Shown in pieces: positions 1,461-16,513 of a DNA stretch of 64,000 bases. Below the pieces are notes generated by a model. The model searched no databases. It saw nothing but the letters and a program-made list of their open reading frames with translations, and was not told where the DNA came from. Made by a program: the position numbers and the translations under genes. How positions within the stretch are numbered: the stretch's first letter is position 1; every line of letters begins with the position of its first letter. This DNA is from an uncultured Lachnospiraceae bacterium. GTDB taxonomy: Bacteria > Bacillota > Clostridia > Lachnospirales > Lachnospiraceae. The stretch is from assembly GCA_947589315.1 (NCBI GenBank), contig CANPZE010000002.1, positions 1-64,000 on the forward strand, given 5' to 3'.

Positions 1461-1783
1461 TAAAAGGAGTTCCGTTCTGCCCGGTTTTGTGATCGGTTAA
1501 TCAAAGAGCAACAGCCTAATGCCGCCACACTTAAATTCCGCTTTGATGGACAGACTACATGATGGGCACATCCATTGCACTGTATGCAGATTGTCCGCAG
1601 TCCAAAAAGATTGCCTTTCGTATCAACAAGTTTAATTGCCTTTCCATAATTCAAAGCCAGACTGGTTATCTTCTTTGCTATACATAATCTCATCTCGCTT
1701 TTAGTTTTAAAAGCCATCTTAATATTGGGGGATTTTCTAGGTCAATGATTCTTAATGGCAGAGCAGTGACAAAACTTTTTCGA

Positions 1784-1822
1784 CCCCAAAAAAGAAGAAA
1801 GTACCATTTCCCGGTACTTTCC
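1784..1822. repeat. Copy 1 of a duplicated terminator-like sequence (CCCCAAAAAAGAAGAAAGTACCATTTCCCGGTACTTTCC)
   Basis: Near-identical to 2887-2926; contains inverted repeat AAAGTACC/GGTACTTT. Confidence 0.8.
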
Positions 1823-1882
1823 TACATAAATAATGGGAGGTAACTGACCTTCTTGAATATTTCGCTTATAGTAATGCATAAT

Positions 1883-1953
1883 AAATCAGTGATAACTGAT
1901 TTTGGACTGGTCGAAAGGCCCTGGTCCACCGAACGGCGGGGAATTTCCCCGCC
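1883..1953 (+). ncRNA. Candidate structured RNA: three consecutive hairpins upstream of a DUF3800 gene
   Basis: AAATCAGT-GATA-ACTGATTT; GGAC-T-GGTC-GAAA-GGCC-CTG-GTCC; GGCGGGG-AATTT-CCCCGCC. Confidence 0.5.
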
Positions 1954-1990
1954 ATTTTCATTTTCAGCTTTATTATCAAAGGGTGATTGT

Positions 1991-2689
1991 ATGTCAGAAA
2001 AGATACTTAGTGTTTTCATAGGCGAGTCCGGCGACTTCGGTCCCTATGAAGCCCATGCACCCTACTACCTTGTTTCTATGATATTACATAACCAAAATAC
2101 GGATATTTCTAAAAACATAAAAGTTTTCGATACCCATCTAGCCAATTTAGGCTATCAAAATCATGCCATTCACACTGGTCTACTGATACGGCGCGAATCC
2201 GTGTATTCCAACGCTTGGATCAAGGAACGGAAACGCCTGTTCAATGCCTTATTCAACTTTGCCCGCAAGCTTGATTTTCAGTATTCCTACATCAAGATAA
2301 GGAAAAGCGAATGTCCAGATGTCATAACAATAACTTCCAAGGTATCAAAGGCTCTGGCTAATGAGCTGAAACGCGATGAGAATTTTTTGAATAGCTTTAA
2401 TAATATTATTGTCTACTATGATAATGGGCAAATTGAACTCACTAAAATCCTCACATCCGTATTCAGCTCGTTATATATCCATGTTGAATTTCGGAAAGCG
2501 AAACCCATAGACTATAAATTATTTCAAATTGCCGACCTTGTCTGTACAATGGAGCTTTTATCCGAAAAGGCAGATAACCATATATTTACCCATTCTGAAA
2601 TGGAGTTTTTTGGAAATATCAGAAATTTTATTCTATCATACATTTTTCAGCTGTACAAGCATAAAATGAAAATATACAGTTTTCCTTAA
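1991..2689 (+). CDS. DUF3800 domain-containing protein
   Basis: N-terminal 'SVFIGESGDFG' (family motif usually FxDESG) and C-terminal 'LFQIADLVC'; ORF has an ATG at 1991. Confidence 0.75.
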   Translation: MSEKILSVFIGESGDFGPYEAHAPYYLVSMILHNQNTDISKNIKVFDTHLANLGYQNHAIHTGLLIRRESVYSNAWIKERKRLFNALFNFARKLDFQYSYIKIRKSECPDVITITSKVSKALANELKRDENFLNSFNNIIVYYDNGQIELTKILTSVFSSLYIHVEFRKAKPIDYKLFQIADLVCTMELLSEKADNHIFTHSEMEFFGNIRNFILSYIFQLYKHKMKIYSFP

Positions 2690-2760
2690 ATAACCGACGG
2701 CGCTTCTTTTGTTGTATTGAATCTTATTCCTAAAAACAGGGGAGACGATTTTTCAGATGT

Positions 2761-2890
2761 AAAAAAAGAACACCGCCTGCACTGACGCCATGCGTCCCAC
2801 TACTTTTGATCAATTTCCTATCCCATAAAAAGGACACCGTCTGCGCTGGCGCCATGCGTTCTGCTTCTCTTCGAGCAATTTCCTATCCCC
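2761..2890. repeat. Two ~64-nt tandem imperfect repeats
   Basis: aaagaacaccgcctgcactgacgccatgcgt...caatttcctatccc and aaaggacaccgtctgcgctggcgccatgcgt...caatttcctatccc. Confidence 0.75.
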
Positions 2891-2926
2891 AAAAAAAGAA
2901 GAAAGTACCATTTCCCGATACTTTCC
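2887..2926 (-). terminator. Intrinsic terminator of tRNA-Ser(GGA), copy 2 of the duplicated sequence
   Basis: On the minus strand GGAAAGTATCGGGAAATGGTACTTTCTTCTTTTTTT lies just downstream of the tRNA. Confidence 0.75.
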
Positions 2927-2963
2927 ATCATTTCGAAGTATATTTTTAACATACTTTCTAAAC

Positions 2964-3051
2964 GGAGAAGGAGGGATTTGAACCCTCGCGCCGCTATTAA
3001 CGACCTACTCCCTTTCCAGGGGAGCCCCTTCAGCCTCTTGGGTACTTCTCC
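2964..3051 (-). tRNA. tRNA-Ser(GGA)
   Basis: GGAGAAG...CTTCTCC acceptor stem, GGTTCAAATCC T-loop, long variable arm, anticodon loop CTGGAAA. Confidence 0.92.
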
Positions 3052-3068
3052 CAATCATATCTCCGGAC

Positions 3069-3100
3069 AAAAAAGAAAACGCTTTCGCGTTCTTCTTTTT
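3069..3100 (-). terminator. Intrinsic terminator between the two tRNA-Ser genes
   Basis: Minus strand AAAAAGAAGAACGCGAAAGCGTTTTCTTTTTT hairpin plus U-tract. Confidence 0.6.
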
Positions 3101-3113
3101 ATCTCGGTAAAGC

Positions 3114-3198
3114 GGAGAGGGTGGGATTCGAACCCACGCGCCCTTGCGGACAAACGGTTTTCAAGACCGCCTCGTTATGACCACTTCGATACCTCTCC
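3114..3198 (-). tRNA. tRNA-Ser(TGA)
   Basis: GGAGAGG...CCTCTCC acceptor stem, GGTTCGAATCC T-arm, long variable arm, anticodon loop CTTGAAA. Confidence 0.92.
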
Positions 3199-3353
3199 AT
3201 AACTTTACACCGTCTCAAATAGTCGCTTCTCAAAAACGCTGCTTGTCAAGTATAACATTCTCCCCGGATTCCGTCAAGCCTTTTTTCACGTTTTGCATAT
3301 TTTCCGGAATCTGAAATGCGAAGCTGCGTCTGACAATCCCGTGAAAAAGTGTA

Positions 3354-3384
3354 GGAGCCGTTTCACACAAGGCAAAACGGCTCC
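3354..3384 (-). terminator. Hairpin downstream of the HK-REC-DegV gene, probable terminator
   Basis: 10-bp inverted repeat GGAGCCGTTT/AAACGGCTCC; T-rich stretch follows on the minus strand after a short gap. Confidence 0.45.
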
Positions 3385-3536
3385 CGGAAGTTTTACTTCC
3401 TGTATTGCAGACAAGTACATTATAACAGAATTTTCCAATTTTTGTACTATTATCGACCGACAGATTTCGACCATTTTCTCGGATCACATCTTACATCGGA
3501 TCAGACGAGCCCACTCAGAGCCCGGCTCTGACAGAA

Positions 3537-6221
3537 TCAGAAGGCGCCTTTTTTCAGATAAGACAAGCCCATTGTGCCGAGCCCCCCGTTACTGGAACAA
3601 GACACCGAAGCTTTTTCTATAATTACCTTTTCAAAGGGAATATATTTTAACACTTCATTGACAAATTCTTCCTGCTCTTTGATCGTACAGCCTGCGTGAG
3701 TAATAAATACGACCGTAGGATCTATGCGGCTCTTCCTCCAAAGGACCCTGCGGATGAAACGCTTCTTTGCCTTATCCAGGTTACCGGTCCGAAATCCTCT
3801 TATTTTGGCATTGCTCTGATGCATTCTCACAATAGGATGCAGCCGGAAAGCATCACAAAACATTTTGATCCCTCTTCCCCCATGCCCGCTGGCATAGTAG
3901 TTCTGTATGGTAGGCATTAAAAATGTTGTGTCAATCTGGTTTTTCAATGTATTCAGTGCATCGCAAAGTTCCTCTACCTGATTGCAGCCATTACGAAGAA
4001 GACGGCTGGCAGCCAATACCAGCAACCCCTCGCCACAGGAGATCTGCCCGGCATCAATAACATGGACATGGTCAAACCCCTCTGCGGCCTGGGCTGCATT
4101 CTGGTAGCTGCCGCCGGCTCCGGAAGCCATAGAAATGTGGATCAACTCCTCTGCCTCAGTAAGGGCTTCTGCATAGAAATTCTCAAACTCCTCTACGGAT
4201 GCACTGACAGCAACCGCCCTGCTTCCCTGATGCGACAGATGGCGGGCAAGGTTATCCGCATCCATTTCTATCGTATCGCGGAAAACACCTTTCTCTGTTT
4301 CCACATAAGAGTATATCATCTTCAGATCATAATACTCCACATATTCTTTGGACAGATCGCTGACGCAGTCGGTAGAAATCTGGATTTTTTTCCGCTTCCG
4401 CCGTAAGATTGCCTGGGCCGCTGCAGCCGATGGATCCGATTTCCCTCCATTGATCCGATACTCGATCAGGCCTTGCGGCAGGAATTTTAATATTTCCCCT
4501 TCCAGCAGGCTCGCATCGATCGGCTTGGCCAGATAACCGTCAAAGCCGTTTTCCAGATATCTCTGCCTGTCGGCAGCAGATACATTAGCCGTAACTATGA
4601 TCACCGGTATCTGCCGGATCAGGCGGCTTTCCCTGTGGCGGATCGCTTTTAAAGTCTGCTCCCCGTCCATCCCCGGCATCATACTATCCAGAAGGATGAC
4701 ATGATACATCTTTTTCTTGATTAATTCCAGACATTCCTCTCCACTTTTGGCGGTGTCGATCTGAACCTTAGTAGCCCGCAGAAGTTTACGGATCACCATC
4801 AGGTTTGTCTCATTGTCGTCCACGACAAGAACTTTGGCCATAGGCGCTTCAAAAGTATGTTTATAGTGCCTCAATTCTTTACTCTGCAATTTCCCGAGAT
4901 AATCCACATTACCGACAGGCTTGCCGTCTACAATCTGCTGATCCAGAGTCACGGTGAACACAGAGCCTTTTTTATAAATACTGTCAACCGTGATCGTTCC
5001 TCCCATCAGGCTGACGAGCTGCTTTGTGATCGCAAGGCCCAGGCCGCTTCCTTCTATTTTACGGTTTTTCTCCCGGTCAATCCTCTTAAAATAATCGTAT
5101 AGTGATTCCAGATCCTCCTTCTTGATACCGATGCCTGTATCCGAAACAGAGACCGTCAGACGTTCCCTGTCCTCTTCTGTCTTCTCGCCCCGCACGGACA
5201 GTGTCACAGATCCCTTCTGGGTATATTTTGCGCTATTAGTCAGCAGATTGATCAAAATCTGCTTAATACGCATTTCATCCCCAAGTAGCACAGCAGGCAG
5301 ATCGCTGTCAATATCGATATAAAAGTTCAGGTTTTTCTCACTCATCCGGATCTGCAGCAACCCTATTACGTCATCAAACAGTTCCCTTGTCCTGTACTCC
5401 ACCGGGACAATCGCCATACGCTCGCTTTCAATCTGGGAAAAATCTAAGATATCATTGATCAGGGCCAGCAGTATCTTACTGGCATTTTTCACTTTCAGCG
5501 CATCTTCTGCCACTTCATCAGAAATCTCTTCCCGCAGGATCATTTCATTTAAGCCGATGATCGTATTGATCGGCGTCCGGATCTCATGGCTCATATTTGT
5601 AAAGAAGGCGTCTTTCGATTTAATAATCTTCTCAATCTCATTCTTTTGCTCCAGAGTCCGCTCCCTCTCTTTTTCGTATGATTGGAGCTGAAAACGCATG
5701 ATAAGTCCCACAGCGATCCCCACAACGACCACGGCAAACAGAGAATCATAATAGACTGCCGATTTGGAGCCAAGGGATATGATCAGCTCCGGATTACGAT
5801 AGGCAAATACATAGGTCCCAATGTCTGTCCCAATAGCCAGGGTAAGAAAAATAACAAGCGTTTTCTTGCGGAACATGATAAAAATATACAGAATCCCCAG
5901 CACAAACCATATTGTAGCGCCCCCATTGATCCCTCCACTGGAGAAAAAGACAAAAGGGAATATCCCGCAGATGACAAATACTGCAAACAATACGGAGGCA
6001 AAGTCCACTTTATGGTATTGGAATGTCATTACGACCGCAATCAAAATAATGAATAGAAGGGCGCATATAGGAAGGGCATTGATCAGGGGATTGTTCAACG
6101 CAAACCCTGCCAGTATCGCAGTGATACATACCATCATTCCCACCACCAGTATCAGGCGGAACAGCTGCTCTCTTATATCTGCAGCCCCTCTGTAAATTAC
6201 CTTTCTTATCTTTTCCCGCAT
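3537..6221 (-). CDS. Membrane hybrid histidine kinase with receiver and C-terminal DegV (EDD-fold fatty-acid-binding) domain
   Basis: N-terminal TM helices; 'NMSHEIRTPINTI' H-box; HATPase motifs; receiver 'VLVVDDNETN...LLDSMMPGMDG'; C-terminal 'ISTDCVSDLSKE', 'LIHISMASGAGGSYQNA', 'VHVIDAGQISCGEGLLVLAA' typical of DegV. Confidence 0.9.
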   Translation of the reverse strand: MREKIRKVIYRGAADIREQLFRLILVVGMMVCITAILAGFALNNPLINALPICALLFIILIAVVMTFQYHKVDFASVLFAVFVICGIFPFVFFSSGGINGGATIWFVLGILYIFIMFRKKTLVIFLTLAIGTDIGTYVFAYRNPELIISLGSKSAVYYDSLFAVVVVGIAVGLIMRFQLQSYEKERERTLEQKNEIEKIIKSKDAFFTNMSHEIRTPINTIIGLNEMILREEISDEVAEDALKVKNASKILLALINDILDFSQIESERMAIVPVEYRTRELFDDVIGLLQIRMSEKNLNFYIDIDSDLPAVLLGDEMRIKQILINLLTNSAKYTQKGSVTLSVRGEKTEEDRERLTVSVSDTGIGIKKEDLESLYDYFKRIDREKNRKIEGSGLGLAITKQLVSLMGGTITVDSIYKKGSVFTVTLDQQIVDGKPVGNVDYLGKLQSKELRHYKHTFEAPMAKVLVVDDNETNLMVIRKLLRATKVQIDTAKSGEECLELIKKKMYHVILLDSMMPGMDGEQTLKAIRHRESRLIRQIPVIIVTANVSAADRQRYLENGFDGYLAKPIDASLLEGEILKFLPQGLIEYRINGGKSDPSAAAAQAILRRKRKKIQISTDCVSDLSKEYVEYYDLKMIYSYVETEKGVFRDTIEMDADNLARHLSHQGSRAVAVSASVEEFENFYAEALTEAEELIHISMASGAGGSYQNAAQAAEGFDHVHVIDAGQISCGEGLLVLAASRLLRNGCNQVEELCDALNTLKNQIDTTFLMPTIQNYYASGHGGRGIKMFCDAFRLHPIVRMHQSNAKIRGFRTGNLDKAKKRFIRRVLWRKSRIDPTVVFITHAGCTIKEQEEFVNEVLKYIPFEKVIIEKASVSCSSNGGLGTMGLSYLKKGAF

Positions 6222-6250
6222 TTTATCCTCTCATTCTGCCTATAAGCTTC

Positions 6251-8824
6251 TTAAGCCTTAAATTCCTGCGCCGCTTTATCCAATGCTTCCTCTCCAAGCT
6301 GTTCCGGCCCGTCCAGGGCCTCCTTGCCAAATTGAGGATGAACCGTCCTGCTCTCTTGAAGTAATTGCAGGATCCGTTCATATTCAGCTGCCATCTGGGC
6401 ATGATGCTCTAATACATATTCTTCATCGCCCCGTTTTGCCGCCAGCTCCAGTTCTTTTGCCATAGCAGACAGCTTTTCCACACCGATGCTGATCATTGTG
6501 CTCTTCAAGGCGTGAACCAGAGTCCCATAATTCTTCCAGTCCCTTTCCTTATAAAATTCTTCTATCCGTTCTCGTTCCTCCTGCCCCTGTATACTGCTCA
6601 GCTGCAGGATTTCAATATAGTTGTCCAGGCTGCCGCAATATTTTATTCCCATTTCCTCGTTAAAGCTTTCCGGCGGCAGATCTGTATAACGCGGGGAACT
6701 GTCCTGTCCTTCGGGAGGCTCCTCCTCTGTCACAGAAGCTTCCGTATGCTTGGAAACAGAATGGAGCTTCTCCTGGGGGAGTATCCGCTTCAGCACTCGT
6801 TCCAATACAGATACTTCGATCGGCTTGGCGATAAAATCCTGAAAACCTTCATTCAAAAATACTTCCCGCATCCCGCCTACAGCGTTCGCTGTCACAGCGA
6901 CCACCGGAAGTTTCCTGAAATAATTCCCCTGCTTCTGGCGGATCCTCTGCAGAGTCTCAATCCCGTCCATTTCCGGCATCATATGGTCCATAAAGACGGC
7001 GTCATATCCCATACCCTCAATCTTTTCCAGGGCTTCCGCCCCACTGGTCGCTATGGCCACTTTAATTTTATACGGCTGAAGCAATCCCTCCAGCACACGG
7101 ATATTCATCAGATTGTCATCCACTACCAGCACATTTGTCTCCGGCGCAATAAAGCCTCCCTGGTAATCATAGTTTGCATCAATCCCCCGGACCATCTTCT
7201 CATCATTTAATATCATGACAATGGGCAAGATGAAAAACGGCTTATACAAACGCTGGATCCTGGGATTGGAAATCCTCATATCGTTAAAGCGTTCAATGAT
7301 CGTGATAACTTTGGCCTCTTCCGAAATCGCATCAAAATAATCTTTGTCTTCTTCGTACTCCTCAATACTGATAAAAATATGGGTAAAATTCTCCCTCTCC
7401 GCCCTTCTCTTTAATTCTTCCAGATTCTGGCAGATATGGCTTTTCACCTTCAGCTGGGTGATCATGTGGAAAATCACCTGGGTATATGCCTCGCGCACCT
7501 CCGGACGGTCATACCGTTCCATATCTACATAGATGGCTATGTTCACGCCTTCCCGGTCCCATACTGAGGCAATAGGGGCGGGATCCTCCACTTTCTGCGG
7601 GACGACAAATTGCACCTCGCTCCCCTTGCCATACTCACTGGATACAGTGATAAAGCCGCCCATAGTCTCCACCAACGCCTGGGAGATCGCAAGGCCAAGC
7701 CCAATGCCTTCCTTTTGGCGGTTGCGCCTGGTATCTACCTGATTAAAATTGGTAAACAGCTTCTCCATACTCTCTTTTTTCATACCGATACCGGTATCCT
7801 TGACACGAACGATCAGATTAATGCCATAGTCCGTTTTTCTTGCGTTGATGATAATGCTGACACAGCCCTCTACAGTAAATTTTAACGCATTATTCACCAG
7901 ATTCATTATGACCCTCCGGATCTTCTGCTCATCCCCTATCAGCCCACTGGGGATACCGGCATCGCAATCCACGATCAGATCGATCTGTTTTGCGCTCTTA
8001 CGGGCCATAGACATATTAATCACATCATTAATGGTAGAAGCGATATTGTAATATTCCTCTACCAGTGTTATTTTTCCAGACTGCATTTCCGTAAAATCCA
8101 ATACATCGCTGACAATGGACTGGAGATTCCGCCCTGCTGTCTGGATGCTGAATACATCTGCCCGGACCTGGTCTTCCAGCTCCTCCCGCAATAGAATCTC
8201 GCTCATTCCACAGATCGTATTGATCGGCGTCCGGATCTCATGGCTGACATTGGCCATAAAATCGTCTTTACTCCGTTCTGCCGCCTGCAGGGAAGCGATT
8301 GTCTTCCTTTGGCGCTCTACCCCTTCCAGACGCTTTTTATTGAGGATATATGTAATATGCTGAATAAAGAAAACGGAACCAATCTCCAAAACAAGCTGGA
8401 AAACTTTATTTTTTGAAGAAAGATCTACTGTGTGCTGGATCAAAAGATGATAAACCACTAAAAAGAGGGATACTCCCACCGTTATGTAGGCAATCTCAGG
8501 GATGCCATAAAATACAAGAGTGATCGCAAGCATAGAAAGAACCGGTACTGTCATAGAAAAACTCCCGGTACAGATTGACCAGATTATGGCGCTGATCTGC
8601 AGCAGACAGGTCATCGCATAGGCGCGGAATATATAAGTCTGGATATTGGCGCAGTGCAGGATGAGGGCAAACAGCCAGCCTCCGTCTACCAGCAGCGCCA
8701 TCCAGATCGACCATCCGTTTTCCACGGCGACAACGGTCAAAGCAGCGCTGAAGATAAAATAGAACAGCAATAAACCTCTCTCTATTACCCCTTGTTCCTT
8801 CTTCTGAATCATCCCTTCCGGCAT
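6251..8824 (-). CDS. Membrane hybrid histidine kinase with degenerate receiver-like segment, receiver and Hpt domains
   Basis: 'NVSHEIRTPINTICGM', HATPase, receiver 'VLVVDDNLMN...MDHMMPEMDG', Hpt 'LVHALKSTM'. Confidence 0.92.
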   Translation of the reverse strand: MPEGMIQKKEQGVIERGLLLFYFIFSAALTVVAVENGWSIWMALLVDGGWLFALILHCANIQTYIFRAYAMTCLLQISAIIWSICTGSFSMTVPVLSMLAITLVFYGIPEIAYITVGVSLFLVVYHLLIQHTVDLSSKNKVFQLVLEIGSVFFIQHITYILNKKRLEGVERQRKTIASLQAAERSKDDFMANVSHEIRTPINTICGMSEILLREELEDQVRADVFSIQTAGRNLQSIVSDVLDFTEMQSGKITLVEEYYNIASTINDVINMSMARKSAKQIDLIVDCDAGIPSGLIGDEQKIRRVIMNLVNNALKFTVEGCVSIIINARKTDYGINLIVRVKDTGIGMKKESMEKLFTNFNQVDTRRNRQKEGIGLGLAISQALVETMGGFITVSSEYGKGSEVQFVVPQKVEDPAPIASVWDREGVNIAIYVDMERYDRPEVREAYTQVIFHMITQLKVKSHICQNLEELKRRAERENFTHIFISIEEYEEDKDYFDAISEEAKVITIIERFNDMRISNPRIQRLYKPFFILPIVMILNDEKMVRGIDANYDYQGGFIAPETNVLVVDDNLMNIRVLEGLLQPYKIKVAIATSGAEALEKIEGMGYDAVFMDHMMPEMDGIETLQRIRQKQGNYFRKLPVVAVTANAVGGMREVFLNEGFQDFIAKPIEVSVLERVLKRILPQEKLHSVSKHTEASVTEEEPPEGQDSSPRYTDLPPESFNEEMGIKYCGSLDNYIEILQLSSIQGQEERERIEEFYKERDWKNYGTLVHALKSTMISIGVEKLSAMAKELELAAKRGDEEYVLEHHAQMAAEYERILQLLQESRTVHPQFGKEALDGPEQLGEEALDKAAQEFKA

Positions 8825-8868: not shown

Positions 8869-9231
8869 TTAATCTAATAGGATTTTTTGAATTGTCTTGA
8901 GCAGACGGTCTTGCTCCACCGGCTTCAGAAGATAGCCCTGCGGACGGCATTTCAATACAGCCTCCACATCTTCCCGATCATCTACCCCTGTAAGGAAAAT
9001 CACAGGGATATCCTTCGTTTCGTCCTCATTCTGCAGCTTCCGAAAGGTTTCCTTTCCGCTCATAATAGGCATATCATAATCTAATAAGATCAAATCCGGC
9101 TGTTCCTTCTTAGCAATCTTGATGCCCTCAAGTCCAGATGGCGCCATTAATGTCTCATAGTTATTCTGTAACAGCATATTTAAGGTCCTGCGCTGGATCA
9201 TACTGTCATCAATTAATAAAATGCGTTTCAT
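8869..9231 (-). CDS. Stand-alone response regulator receiver
   Basis: 'MKRILLIDDSMIQ...LILLDYDMPIMSG...IFLTG...GYLLKPV'; no output domain. Confidence 0.92.
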   Translation of the reverse strand: MKRILLIDDSMIQRRTLNMLLQNNYETLMAPSGLEGIKIAKKEQPDLILLDYDMPIMSGKETFRKLQNEDETKDIPVIFLTGVDDREDVEAVLKCRPQGYLLKPVEQDRLLKTIQKILLD

Positions 9232-9308
9232 TTCCGACCATCCTTTATGTAAGTATTCTAATACGGATAAGTATATCACAAAGCATATGATAAGAAAAGA
9301 AGATTCTT

Positions 9309-14650: not shown

Positions 14651-16513
14651 ATGCAGGAAAAAGAAGAGTTGGAATATCAGCTTAGAGAACAGATAGACTT
14701 TAAGAAATTAAATGAGCTTTGCGAGTACCTCACCGATGCAGTCCGGGAAATCTTCCAGTCCTGCGGCCTTTATTTCCGTATCTTCTCCCGGGTCAAATCA
14801 GTAGAGTCCATCGCCCGCAAGCTTCTCCACGGACAATACGGCACCCAGGCCAATCCCAAGAATCTCCAGGATCTGATCGGCCTCCGTGTCGTCCTCTATT
14901 ATTATGATGACCTGAGCATCTGCAGGGATATTATGGAGAGTACCTTTCAGATGGTGGATTCCTGGTCCAAAACAAATTACAATGCCGATGAATTTAAAGC
15001 AGCCAAGATCAACGGCGTCTTTAAGATCCCCGCAGAATATTTCCGCAGCTACACGAGATCCATTTGGACCCTCCCCATCGACACCACCTTTGAGATCCAG
15101 TTCCGCACCGTTTTCTTTGAAGGCTGGCATGAGATCGAACACGATATGCGTTATAAAAGCCTCCTCTCCGATGCCCAATTCTGGCAGGGCAGCGAAGAGC
15201 TGTCCCGTATTTTGAACTGCATCCTGGCCAACCTGGAATTAAGCGACTGGTCCCTGGTACAGCTTTTCGATCAGCTGTCTTACAACCATTACAAAAATGG
15301 CAATTGGGAACTGATGCTGAAAAGCAAATTCCGCATTAAAATGGATGACAGCATCCCCCTGGATCACAGGATCCTTTCGATCTTTGACCAGAACCGGGAG
15401 GTCGCCAAACAGTTTTTTAAATGTTCCCGCCACAGCCTGATCCGGGAATTGTTAAAGCAGGATTCCACTCATGTGACGCACAATCTGATCATCCAGATCC
15501 TGAATGACACAAGCGTCCACAATGAGGAAATCGGCCGGGTATGCCGCCAGCTTGCCTCCCCGCAGGCAGAACACAGCTTCCAGAAGCCCTCTCTGTCTCC
15601 TTTAGATTCCTATACGCTATTTCATATAGATATCCCTCTGCTCCACCGGGCCAGCCGGGATATGCATAACGAATTTTTAACCGCAGCCAACATCCTGTAC
15701 AAGTGGGCAAAGCATAAGATGAATGCTGTATTTCCTGACCTGCCCGCAGATATTTCCTCCTATCATGGACAGCTCCCGGGTTACAGTCTGGATATCCGTT
15801 TCCAGCCAGGACAGCCCTCCTTTGAGATACAGCTTTGCTATATTGATACCCAGCACATCGGCACTCTTTGGCAAATGGATTCTTCCATCAAAAGAAGAGG
15901 GGATTTGCTGCAGCTTCGCCATGTTACCAGCTACAGCATCCCCCGCGGCACCATCCACAAGGAAACCTTCTGCAAGCCTTCCTTTCTCGCCGACCTGTCG
16001 AATAAGATAGGGCTGTTGGATGGGATCCGCCTGAGCGCCAAGGCGCATTTTGTCAGCAAACAAACGGACTTTGACGGATTGCTCCGCCTTTTGGAGCATC
16101 CGCAGCGCCAGCTTCCCATTGTAGTGCTTTTACAGCACGCCCCCTCTGCCTCCCAGGAAGACAAATGGGACGGATATGATATGAATACCTTTTCTGTCAA
16201 TGGAACCCGCCTTGCGAAAGTAACCGGTCTGTACTCCCATATTTTTATGATAAGCCACAGGTTTCTGGGACAATGGGTGAAGGCCCAGAACCTTTCTCCC
16301 TCAGAGGCAGACGGCTGTATTATGATCTTCTGGCCTGGTTCCCCAGAGAAAAAAGTAGAATTATTCACCCAGGAAATGGTATTTGAGACCCACTTTGATT
16401 TTAACCGGTTTGCATTTCACGATGAAACGATCTGCGAAAAGGCGTTTCGCCACAAGCTGGTACAGCTGCTGAAAAATTATAATTGCAGCAGCCTATCTCA
16501 GGGTGATTTTTAA
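14651..16513 (+). CDS. RelA/SpoT-like nucleotidyltransferase domain fused to a large unclassified C-terminal region
   Basis: 'RVKSVESIARKLL', 'LQDLIGLRVVLYYYDD', 'FEIQFRTVFFEGWHEIEHDMRYK', then ~430 aa without a recognised domain. Confidence 0.8.
   Translation: MQEKEELEYQLREQIDFKKLNELCEYLTDAVREIFQSCGLYFRIFSRVKSVESIARKLLHGQYGTQANPKNLQDLIGLRVVLYYYDDLSICRDIMESTFQMVDSWSKTNYNADEFKAAKINGVFKIPAEYFRSYTRSIWTLPIDTTFEIQFRTVFFEGWHEIEHDMRYKSLLSDAQFWQGSEELSRILNCILANLELSDWSLVQLFDQLSYNHYKNGNWELMLKSKFRIKMDDSIPLDHRILSIFDQNREVAKQFFKCSRHSLIRELLKQDSTHVTHNLIIQILNDTSVHNEEIGRVCRQLASPQAEHSFQKPSLSPLDSYTLFHIDIPLLHRASRDMHNEFLTAANILYKWAKHKMNAVFPDLPADISSYHGQLPGYSLDIRFQPGQPSFEIQLCYIDTQHIGTLWQMDSSIKRRGDLLQLRHVTSYSIPRGTIHKETFCKPSFLADLSNKIGLLDGIRLSAKAHFVSKQTDFDGLLRLLEHPQRQLPIVVLLQHAPSASQEDKWDGYDMNTFSVNGTRLAKVTGLYSHIFMISHRFLGQWVKAQNLSPSEADGCIMIFWPGSPEKKVELFTQEMVFETHFDFNRFAFHDETICEKAFRHKLVQLLKNYNCSSLSQGDF

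Follow-up and report, generated by a model that had tools for sequence, protein, structure and literature searches.

A DegV domain behind a hybrid histidine kinase in Lachnospiraceae: a candidate cytosolic sensor in two-kinase phosphorelay operons

In the LuxN/LuxQ to LuxU and GacS/RetS-type networks, hybrid histidine kinases converge on one Hpt. The sensing of host or dietary fatty acids by gut Firmicutes is a largely open question, and we know of no kinase that uses a DegV/FakB domain as its sensor. The DegV fold itself is represented by fatty-acid binders such as FakB1 and FakB2 of S. aureus and TM841 of T. maritima. In FakB1, Thr62, Ser95, Ser171 and His270 hold the carboxylate of the fatty acid, and the R173A variant is catalytically inactive, yet was crystallised with palmitate (PMC8892158; 7scl).

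We analysed a window of 64,000 nucleotides (positions 1 to 64,000 of contig CANPZE010000002.1, from an uncultured Lachnospiraceae bacterium). Its minus strand encodes a single open reading frame in which six transmembrane (TM) helices, a HisKA/HATPase kinase core, a receiver and a DegV domain follow one another, and two further signalling genes lie upstream:

3537..6221, minus strand: HK-REC-DegV fusion protein, 894 aa (open reading frame, Pfam and TIGR profiles)
5682..6176, minus strand: six predicted TM helices, aa ~16-180 (hydropathy and AF2 secondary structure)
5421..5615, minus strand: HisKA with phospho-acceptor His212, nt 5586-5588 (Pfam, family alignment)
4935..5282, minus strand: HATPase_c, with N, G1 and G2 boxes conserved across the fusion family (Pfam)
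4500..4832, minus strand: receiver domain with phospho-Asp512, nt 4686-4688 (Pfam, family alignment)
4389..4499, minus strand: linker between receiver and DegV, partly disordered (family alignment, AF2 model)
3549..4388, minus strand: DegV domain (Pfam, AF2, Foldseek, residue mapping)
6251..8824, minus strand: partner hybrid kinase of 857 aa (HK-REC-Hpt), separated by 29 nt from the fusion gene downstream of it
8869..9279, minus strand: stand-alone receiver (lone REC), in a slot that holds REC-HD-GYP, REC-GGDEF or REC-PP2C in many relatives

A sequence-only reading had proposed this kinase–receiver–DegV architecture with N-terminal helices, and Pfam, TIGR00762 and AF2 all bear it out. The Pfam matches span residues 203-267 (HisKA), 314-429 (HATPase_c), 464-574 (Response_reg) and 612-891 (DegV). 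The H-box (H212), the N and G boxes and the receiver Asp (D512) are all intact, the H-box and phospho-Asp as that reading had stated, and identify the protein as a hybrid histidine kinase. Hydropathy and the AF2 model (helices at residues 16-41, 49-69, 72-94, 102-116, 119-142 and 153-230) indicate a membrane part without a large extracellular domain, the sixth helix continuing as a long helix that reaches the H-box. The kinase–receiver core scores well against the NCBIfam models of the tripartite kinases BarA and TorS, but below their cut-offs; these kinases carry an Hpt where the fusion has DegV, and in one Lachnospiraceae group an Hpt comes after the DegV.

The C-terminus is DegV, as the same reading had assigned it: PF02645 is matched along its entire length, positions 1-280 of 280, with E 8.1e-35 and 121 bits (cut-off 27), and TIGR00762 scores 127.7 bits (cut-off 99.7). 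Modelled in isolation, with 36 aligned fusion homologues as input, the domain reaches pLDDT 93.7 and pTM 0.91. The top solved-structure matches of this model are the DegV/FakB fatty-acid binders 2dt8, 4x9x (FakB2), 1pzx and 5uto, at TM 0.83-0.86 over the full length (Foldseek E 3.4e-26 for 2dt8). The fusion DegV thus shares the fold of FakB1, FakB2 and TM841 across the whole domain, with full-length Pfam and TIGR matches. It differs from them in its place behind a receiver, in its ~20% identity, in the absence of a fakA neighbour and in lacking the residues of the carboxylate network and of FakA-dependent catalysis. In the full-length model (pTM 0.40) the DegV fold is again confident, no confident contact of DegV with kinase or receiver is seen, the domains are not confidently placed relative to one another, and linker residues 590-608 fall below pLDDT 50. 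The gap between the receiver and DegV profile matches stays within a narrow range of 25-36 aa across the family. A polybasic membrane anchor, considered because of the RRKRKK in the linker of the window protein, was rejected as not general (mean net charge of linkers +1.0, against a background of -0.35).

To compare the pockets, S. aureus FakB2 (its sequence verified against 4x9x) was mapped onto 78 fused and 36 stand-alone DegVs in an alignment of 115 sequences. The receivers of the fusions were scored by alignment columns of their own. Arg170, Arg202 and His266 occur together in 29 of 36 stand-alone DegVs and in 0 of 78 fused ones. The Arg170 equivalent (FakB1 Arg173, needed for catalysis) is Arg in 35/36 stand-alone domains against 22/78 fusions, the surface Arg202 (FakB1 Arg205) is kept in a single fusion of 78, and the His266 position (FakB1 His270, of the carboxylate network) reads Asn in 68, Ser in 9, Thr in 1 and His in none. 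In the window protein the counterparts of T61, S93, R170, R202 and H266 are A671, G703, H780, T812 and N878, so that all five differ from FakB2, although Arg811 adjoins Thr812 and leaves the state of R202 uncertain here. The change of the usual loop His to Asn, already noticed in the sequence-only reading, is therefore real and belongs to the family as a whole, not to the window; the accompanying remark that ligand chemistry may differ holds. The fusion DegVs also carry shared motifs of their own, KASPAI..NCGPGTFG and D[SA]GHLSSG.

Because the residues that FakB needs for catalysis with FakA are missing in the fusions, a role of the domain as a FakA carrier is unsupported, and the evidence as a whole makes it unlikely that the DegV of the window fusion carries substrate for FakA. 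An annotation as "DegV family" accordingly does not imply Fak function. Proximity to fakA, named earlier as a point to check, was not found in the window genome: its single FakA homologue lies on another contig (C1), in a housekeeping neighbourhood of recG/rsmD/coaD-like genes, and we rejected linkage of the fusion to fakA. Elsewhere in the window, a 620-aa protein at 14651-16510 (plus strand) resembles a RelA_SpoT synthetase over aa 46-170 (E 1e-14) and extends for ~400 further residues that match no Pfam profile, making it an unusually long alarmone-synthetase-like protein. A DUF3800 protein at 1856-2686 (plus strand; a weak match above the cut-off) is convergent to the kinase operon.

A survey for the architecture recovered ~78 distinct homologous fusions, mostly from Lachnospiraceae, and most of the hosts are gut or rumen bacteria according to their record titles. 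The window genome has four DegV domains: two are stand-alone, one belongs to the window fusion and one to another HK-REC-DegV, encoded on contig C9. Of 150 Lachnospiraceae genomes sampled, about 28 hold at least one fusion by manual count of open frames of at least 780 aa. A contig search added dozens more, again mostly Lachnospiraceae but also records that bear the labels Oscillospiraceae and Eubacterium, and a single MAG labelled "Candidatus Avitreponema". A sample of 291 genomes from the class yielded more fusions in the window's family and in one other (f45) only. Among 300 sampled genomes of the phylum, at a stricter cut-off, they were confined to the window's family, and it is on this one Bacillota-wide sample that the distribution beyond Clostridia rests.

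Close relatives keep the fusion at 69-78% identity along the whole protein. A sequencing frameshift, named at the outset as a finding that would undo the fusion, is thereby ruled out, as it is by the occurrence of fusions in many genomes. All 76 fusions that could be aligned at the kinase His retain it, and 77 of 78 have the receiver Asp. Mean pairwise identity within the family is 62% for the kinase, 56% for the receiver, 38% for DegV and 22% for the TM part, a contrast that fits the expectation for DegV and TM as variable sensory parts. Two divergent fusions, L034 and L164 (7933-10560), have no H-box His that can be aligned; in L164, Asn replaces the receiver Asp, no partner kinase is adjacent and the neighbours resemble sugar ABC transporters. 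Both are possibly signalling-dead derivatives of the DegV kinases.

A tree of 122 DegV domains places the fusion DegVs in a single group (SH-aLRT 93). L025 and L095, both unfused, are its sisters, ordinary clostridial DegVs come next (100), and the nearest unfused outgroup members (L035, L172-177) keep all five FakB2 residues. In L025 and L095, R202 and H266 are gone. The L025 locus reads HK-REC-Hpt, DegV, REC-GGDEF, and the L095 DegV directly follows two tandem kinases; there, at 4090-8200, an HK-REC-Hpt kinase with an extracellular dCache domain overlaps the unfused, signature-less DegV gene as a natural split form. At 42 other stand-alone DegV loci, no kinase, receiver or Hpt lies within ~1.5 kb. 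Since signature-less but unfused DegVs sit in kinase operons, loss of the Fak residues tracks membership of a phosphorelay operon and not fusion as such. The fused DegVs share a common ancestry, and in our best explanation they descend from a FakB-type fatty-acid carrier, with loss of the residues that FakA-dependent fatty-acid phosphorylation requires.

The window operon runs from the lone REC through HK-REC-Hpt to HK-REC-DegV. In every case with an intact partner kinase upstream, the fusion comes directly after this second hybrid kinase: all 45 HK-REC-DegV genes follow an HK-REC-Hpt, and all ten HK-REC-DegV-Hpt genes follow an HK-REC without Hpt. Each kinase pair consequently has one Hpt, on either partner, which argues that the two kinases act as one unit. 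The Hpt-bearing fusions group together in the DegV tree, pointing to few events and not ten. The exceptions are L045, in which an in-frame stop splits the Hpt from its kinase; L066, a member of the Hpt-bearing clade in which no Hpt was detected; and L164, with its degenerate receiver and absent partner. We note that L045 (the "Candidatus Avitreponema" contig) holds a whole REC-HD-GYP / HK-REC / Hpt / HK-REC-DegV operon at 1714-8283 and that its DegV falls within a Lachnospiraceae subclade, a case of horizontal transfer or of a mis-binned contig. At L146 (7616-8059), beside the paralogous kinase, the Hpt match is divided between the end of an HK-REC gene and a separate 148-aa open reading frame in another frame, possibly through a frameshift or sequencing error.

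By manual reading of neighbourhoods, a response regulator gene adjoins roughly 37 of 58 pairs. REC-HD-GYP, REC-GGDEF or the two together, or else REC-PP2C (SpoIIE-PP2C), accompany about half of all pairs, with outputs assigned by Pfam on six representatives, and a few more have a lone REC. The regulator of the window is such a lone REC, with no GGDEF or HD-GYP output domain; the window genome has 10 GGDEF matches elsewhere. Like LuxN/LuxQ-LuxU and GacS/RetS, the systems of the fusion family combine two hybrid kinases, one Hpt and a downstream regulator. In contrast to those networks, the Hpt of the fusion systems is a domain of one of the kinases and occurs on either partner, the putative sensor includes DegV, and the output is often a c-di-GMP enzyme.

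Our best explanation, held with about even confidence, is that the window protein is one of two hybrid sensor kinases of a phosphorelay operon and that DegV most likely serves as its cytosolic sensory or allosteric domain. This role for DegV is favoured by (I) the loss of the Fak residues, (II) the separate regulator in about half of the operons, and (III) the conservation of kinase and receiver against the variability of DegV and TM. The linker would tether DegV flexibly beneath the membrane, where an acyl lipid or similar amphiphile may bind it, and occupancy of DegV would shift the balance between kinase and phosphatase activity. Both kinases would feed phosphoryl groups into the one Hpt of their pair, which would hand them on to the response regulator of the operon, in the window probably the lone REC; in many relatives this regulator would make or break c-di-GMP or act as a PP2C phosphatase. 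Of the earlier proposal that the kinase senses or gates fatty acid, sensing is thus the better reading, with the class of ligand conjectural, whereas DegV as an output that presents lipid to FakA is unsupported. Against DegV as a sensor stand its position behind the receiver, where an output domain usually sits, headgroup residues so altered that the pocket may bind a non-fatty-acid ligand or nothing, a full-length model in which DegV makes no confident contact with kinase or receiver, and a window regulator without an output domain.

One sub-case of the sensor model, possible if somewhat unlikely, is that DegV senses another class of ligand, such as an acyl-phosphate, acyl-CoA, lysophospholipid, bile acid or short-chain acid. 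The near-uniform replacement of His266 by Asn and the conserved N-C-G-P-G-T motif suggest a defined, altered headgroup site, and the gut and rumen origin of most hosts is in keeping with such ligands. We find it improbable that DegV is instead a degenerate, ligand-free interaction module docking the partner kinase, an Hpt or a response regulator. Headgroup residues have indeed been lost (S93 is retained in 35/78 fusions, Arg202 in 1/78), and new family motifs would be expected for a new partner as much as for a new ligand. However, 59/78 fusions still have Ser/Thr at the T61 position, AF2 gives an intact fold with high confidence over the whole domain that matches lipid-loaded structures end to end, and the free DegV of L025 and L095 fits a soluble sensor equally. 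Slightly less probable still is DegV as the output, which had been the original proposal and in which the phosphorylated receiver would open or close the pocket to control fatty-acid capture or release, with or without FakA: the classical response-regulator order, the short linker of conserved length and the presence of one FakA homologue speak for it, but the Fak signature is absent in 78/78 fusions, fakA lies on another contig among housekeeping genes, about half of the operons encode separate response regulators with output enzymes, and a membrane-integral, low-copy kinase would probably make a poor bulk lipid carrier.

Hybrid kinases, relays through a shared Hpt and the DegV fold are each known; a literature search covering open-licence PMC papers returned neither their combination nor the operon or the residue signature, and no description of HK-DegV fusions. 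Domain databases may list the architecture. We tentatively propose, with somewhat less than even confidence, that a phosphorelay in an ancestor of Lachnospiraceae captured a FakB-type carrier in a single event, and that this carrier shed its enzymatic residues and became a dedicated intracellular acyl-lipid sensor, paired with a second kinase around one Hpt and controlling c-di-GMP or another second messenger. As a conserved family in which the Fak-signature residues separate "sensor" from "carrier" DegVs, the fusions offer a directly testable system. If the captured-carrier reading is true, they would constitute a class of cytosolic lipid-sensing kinases undescribed in the open-licence PMC literature.
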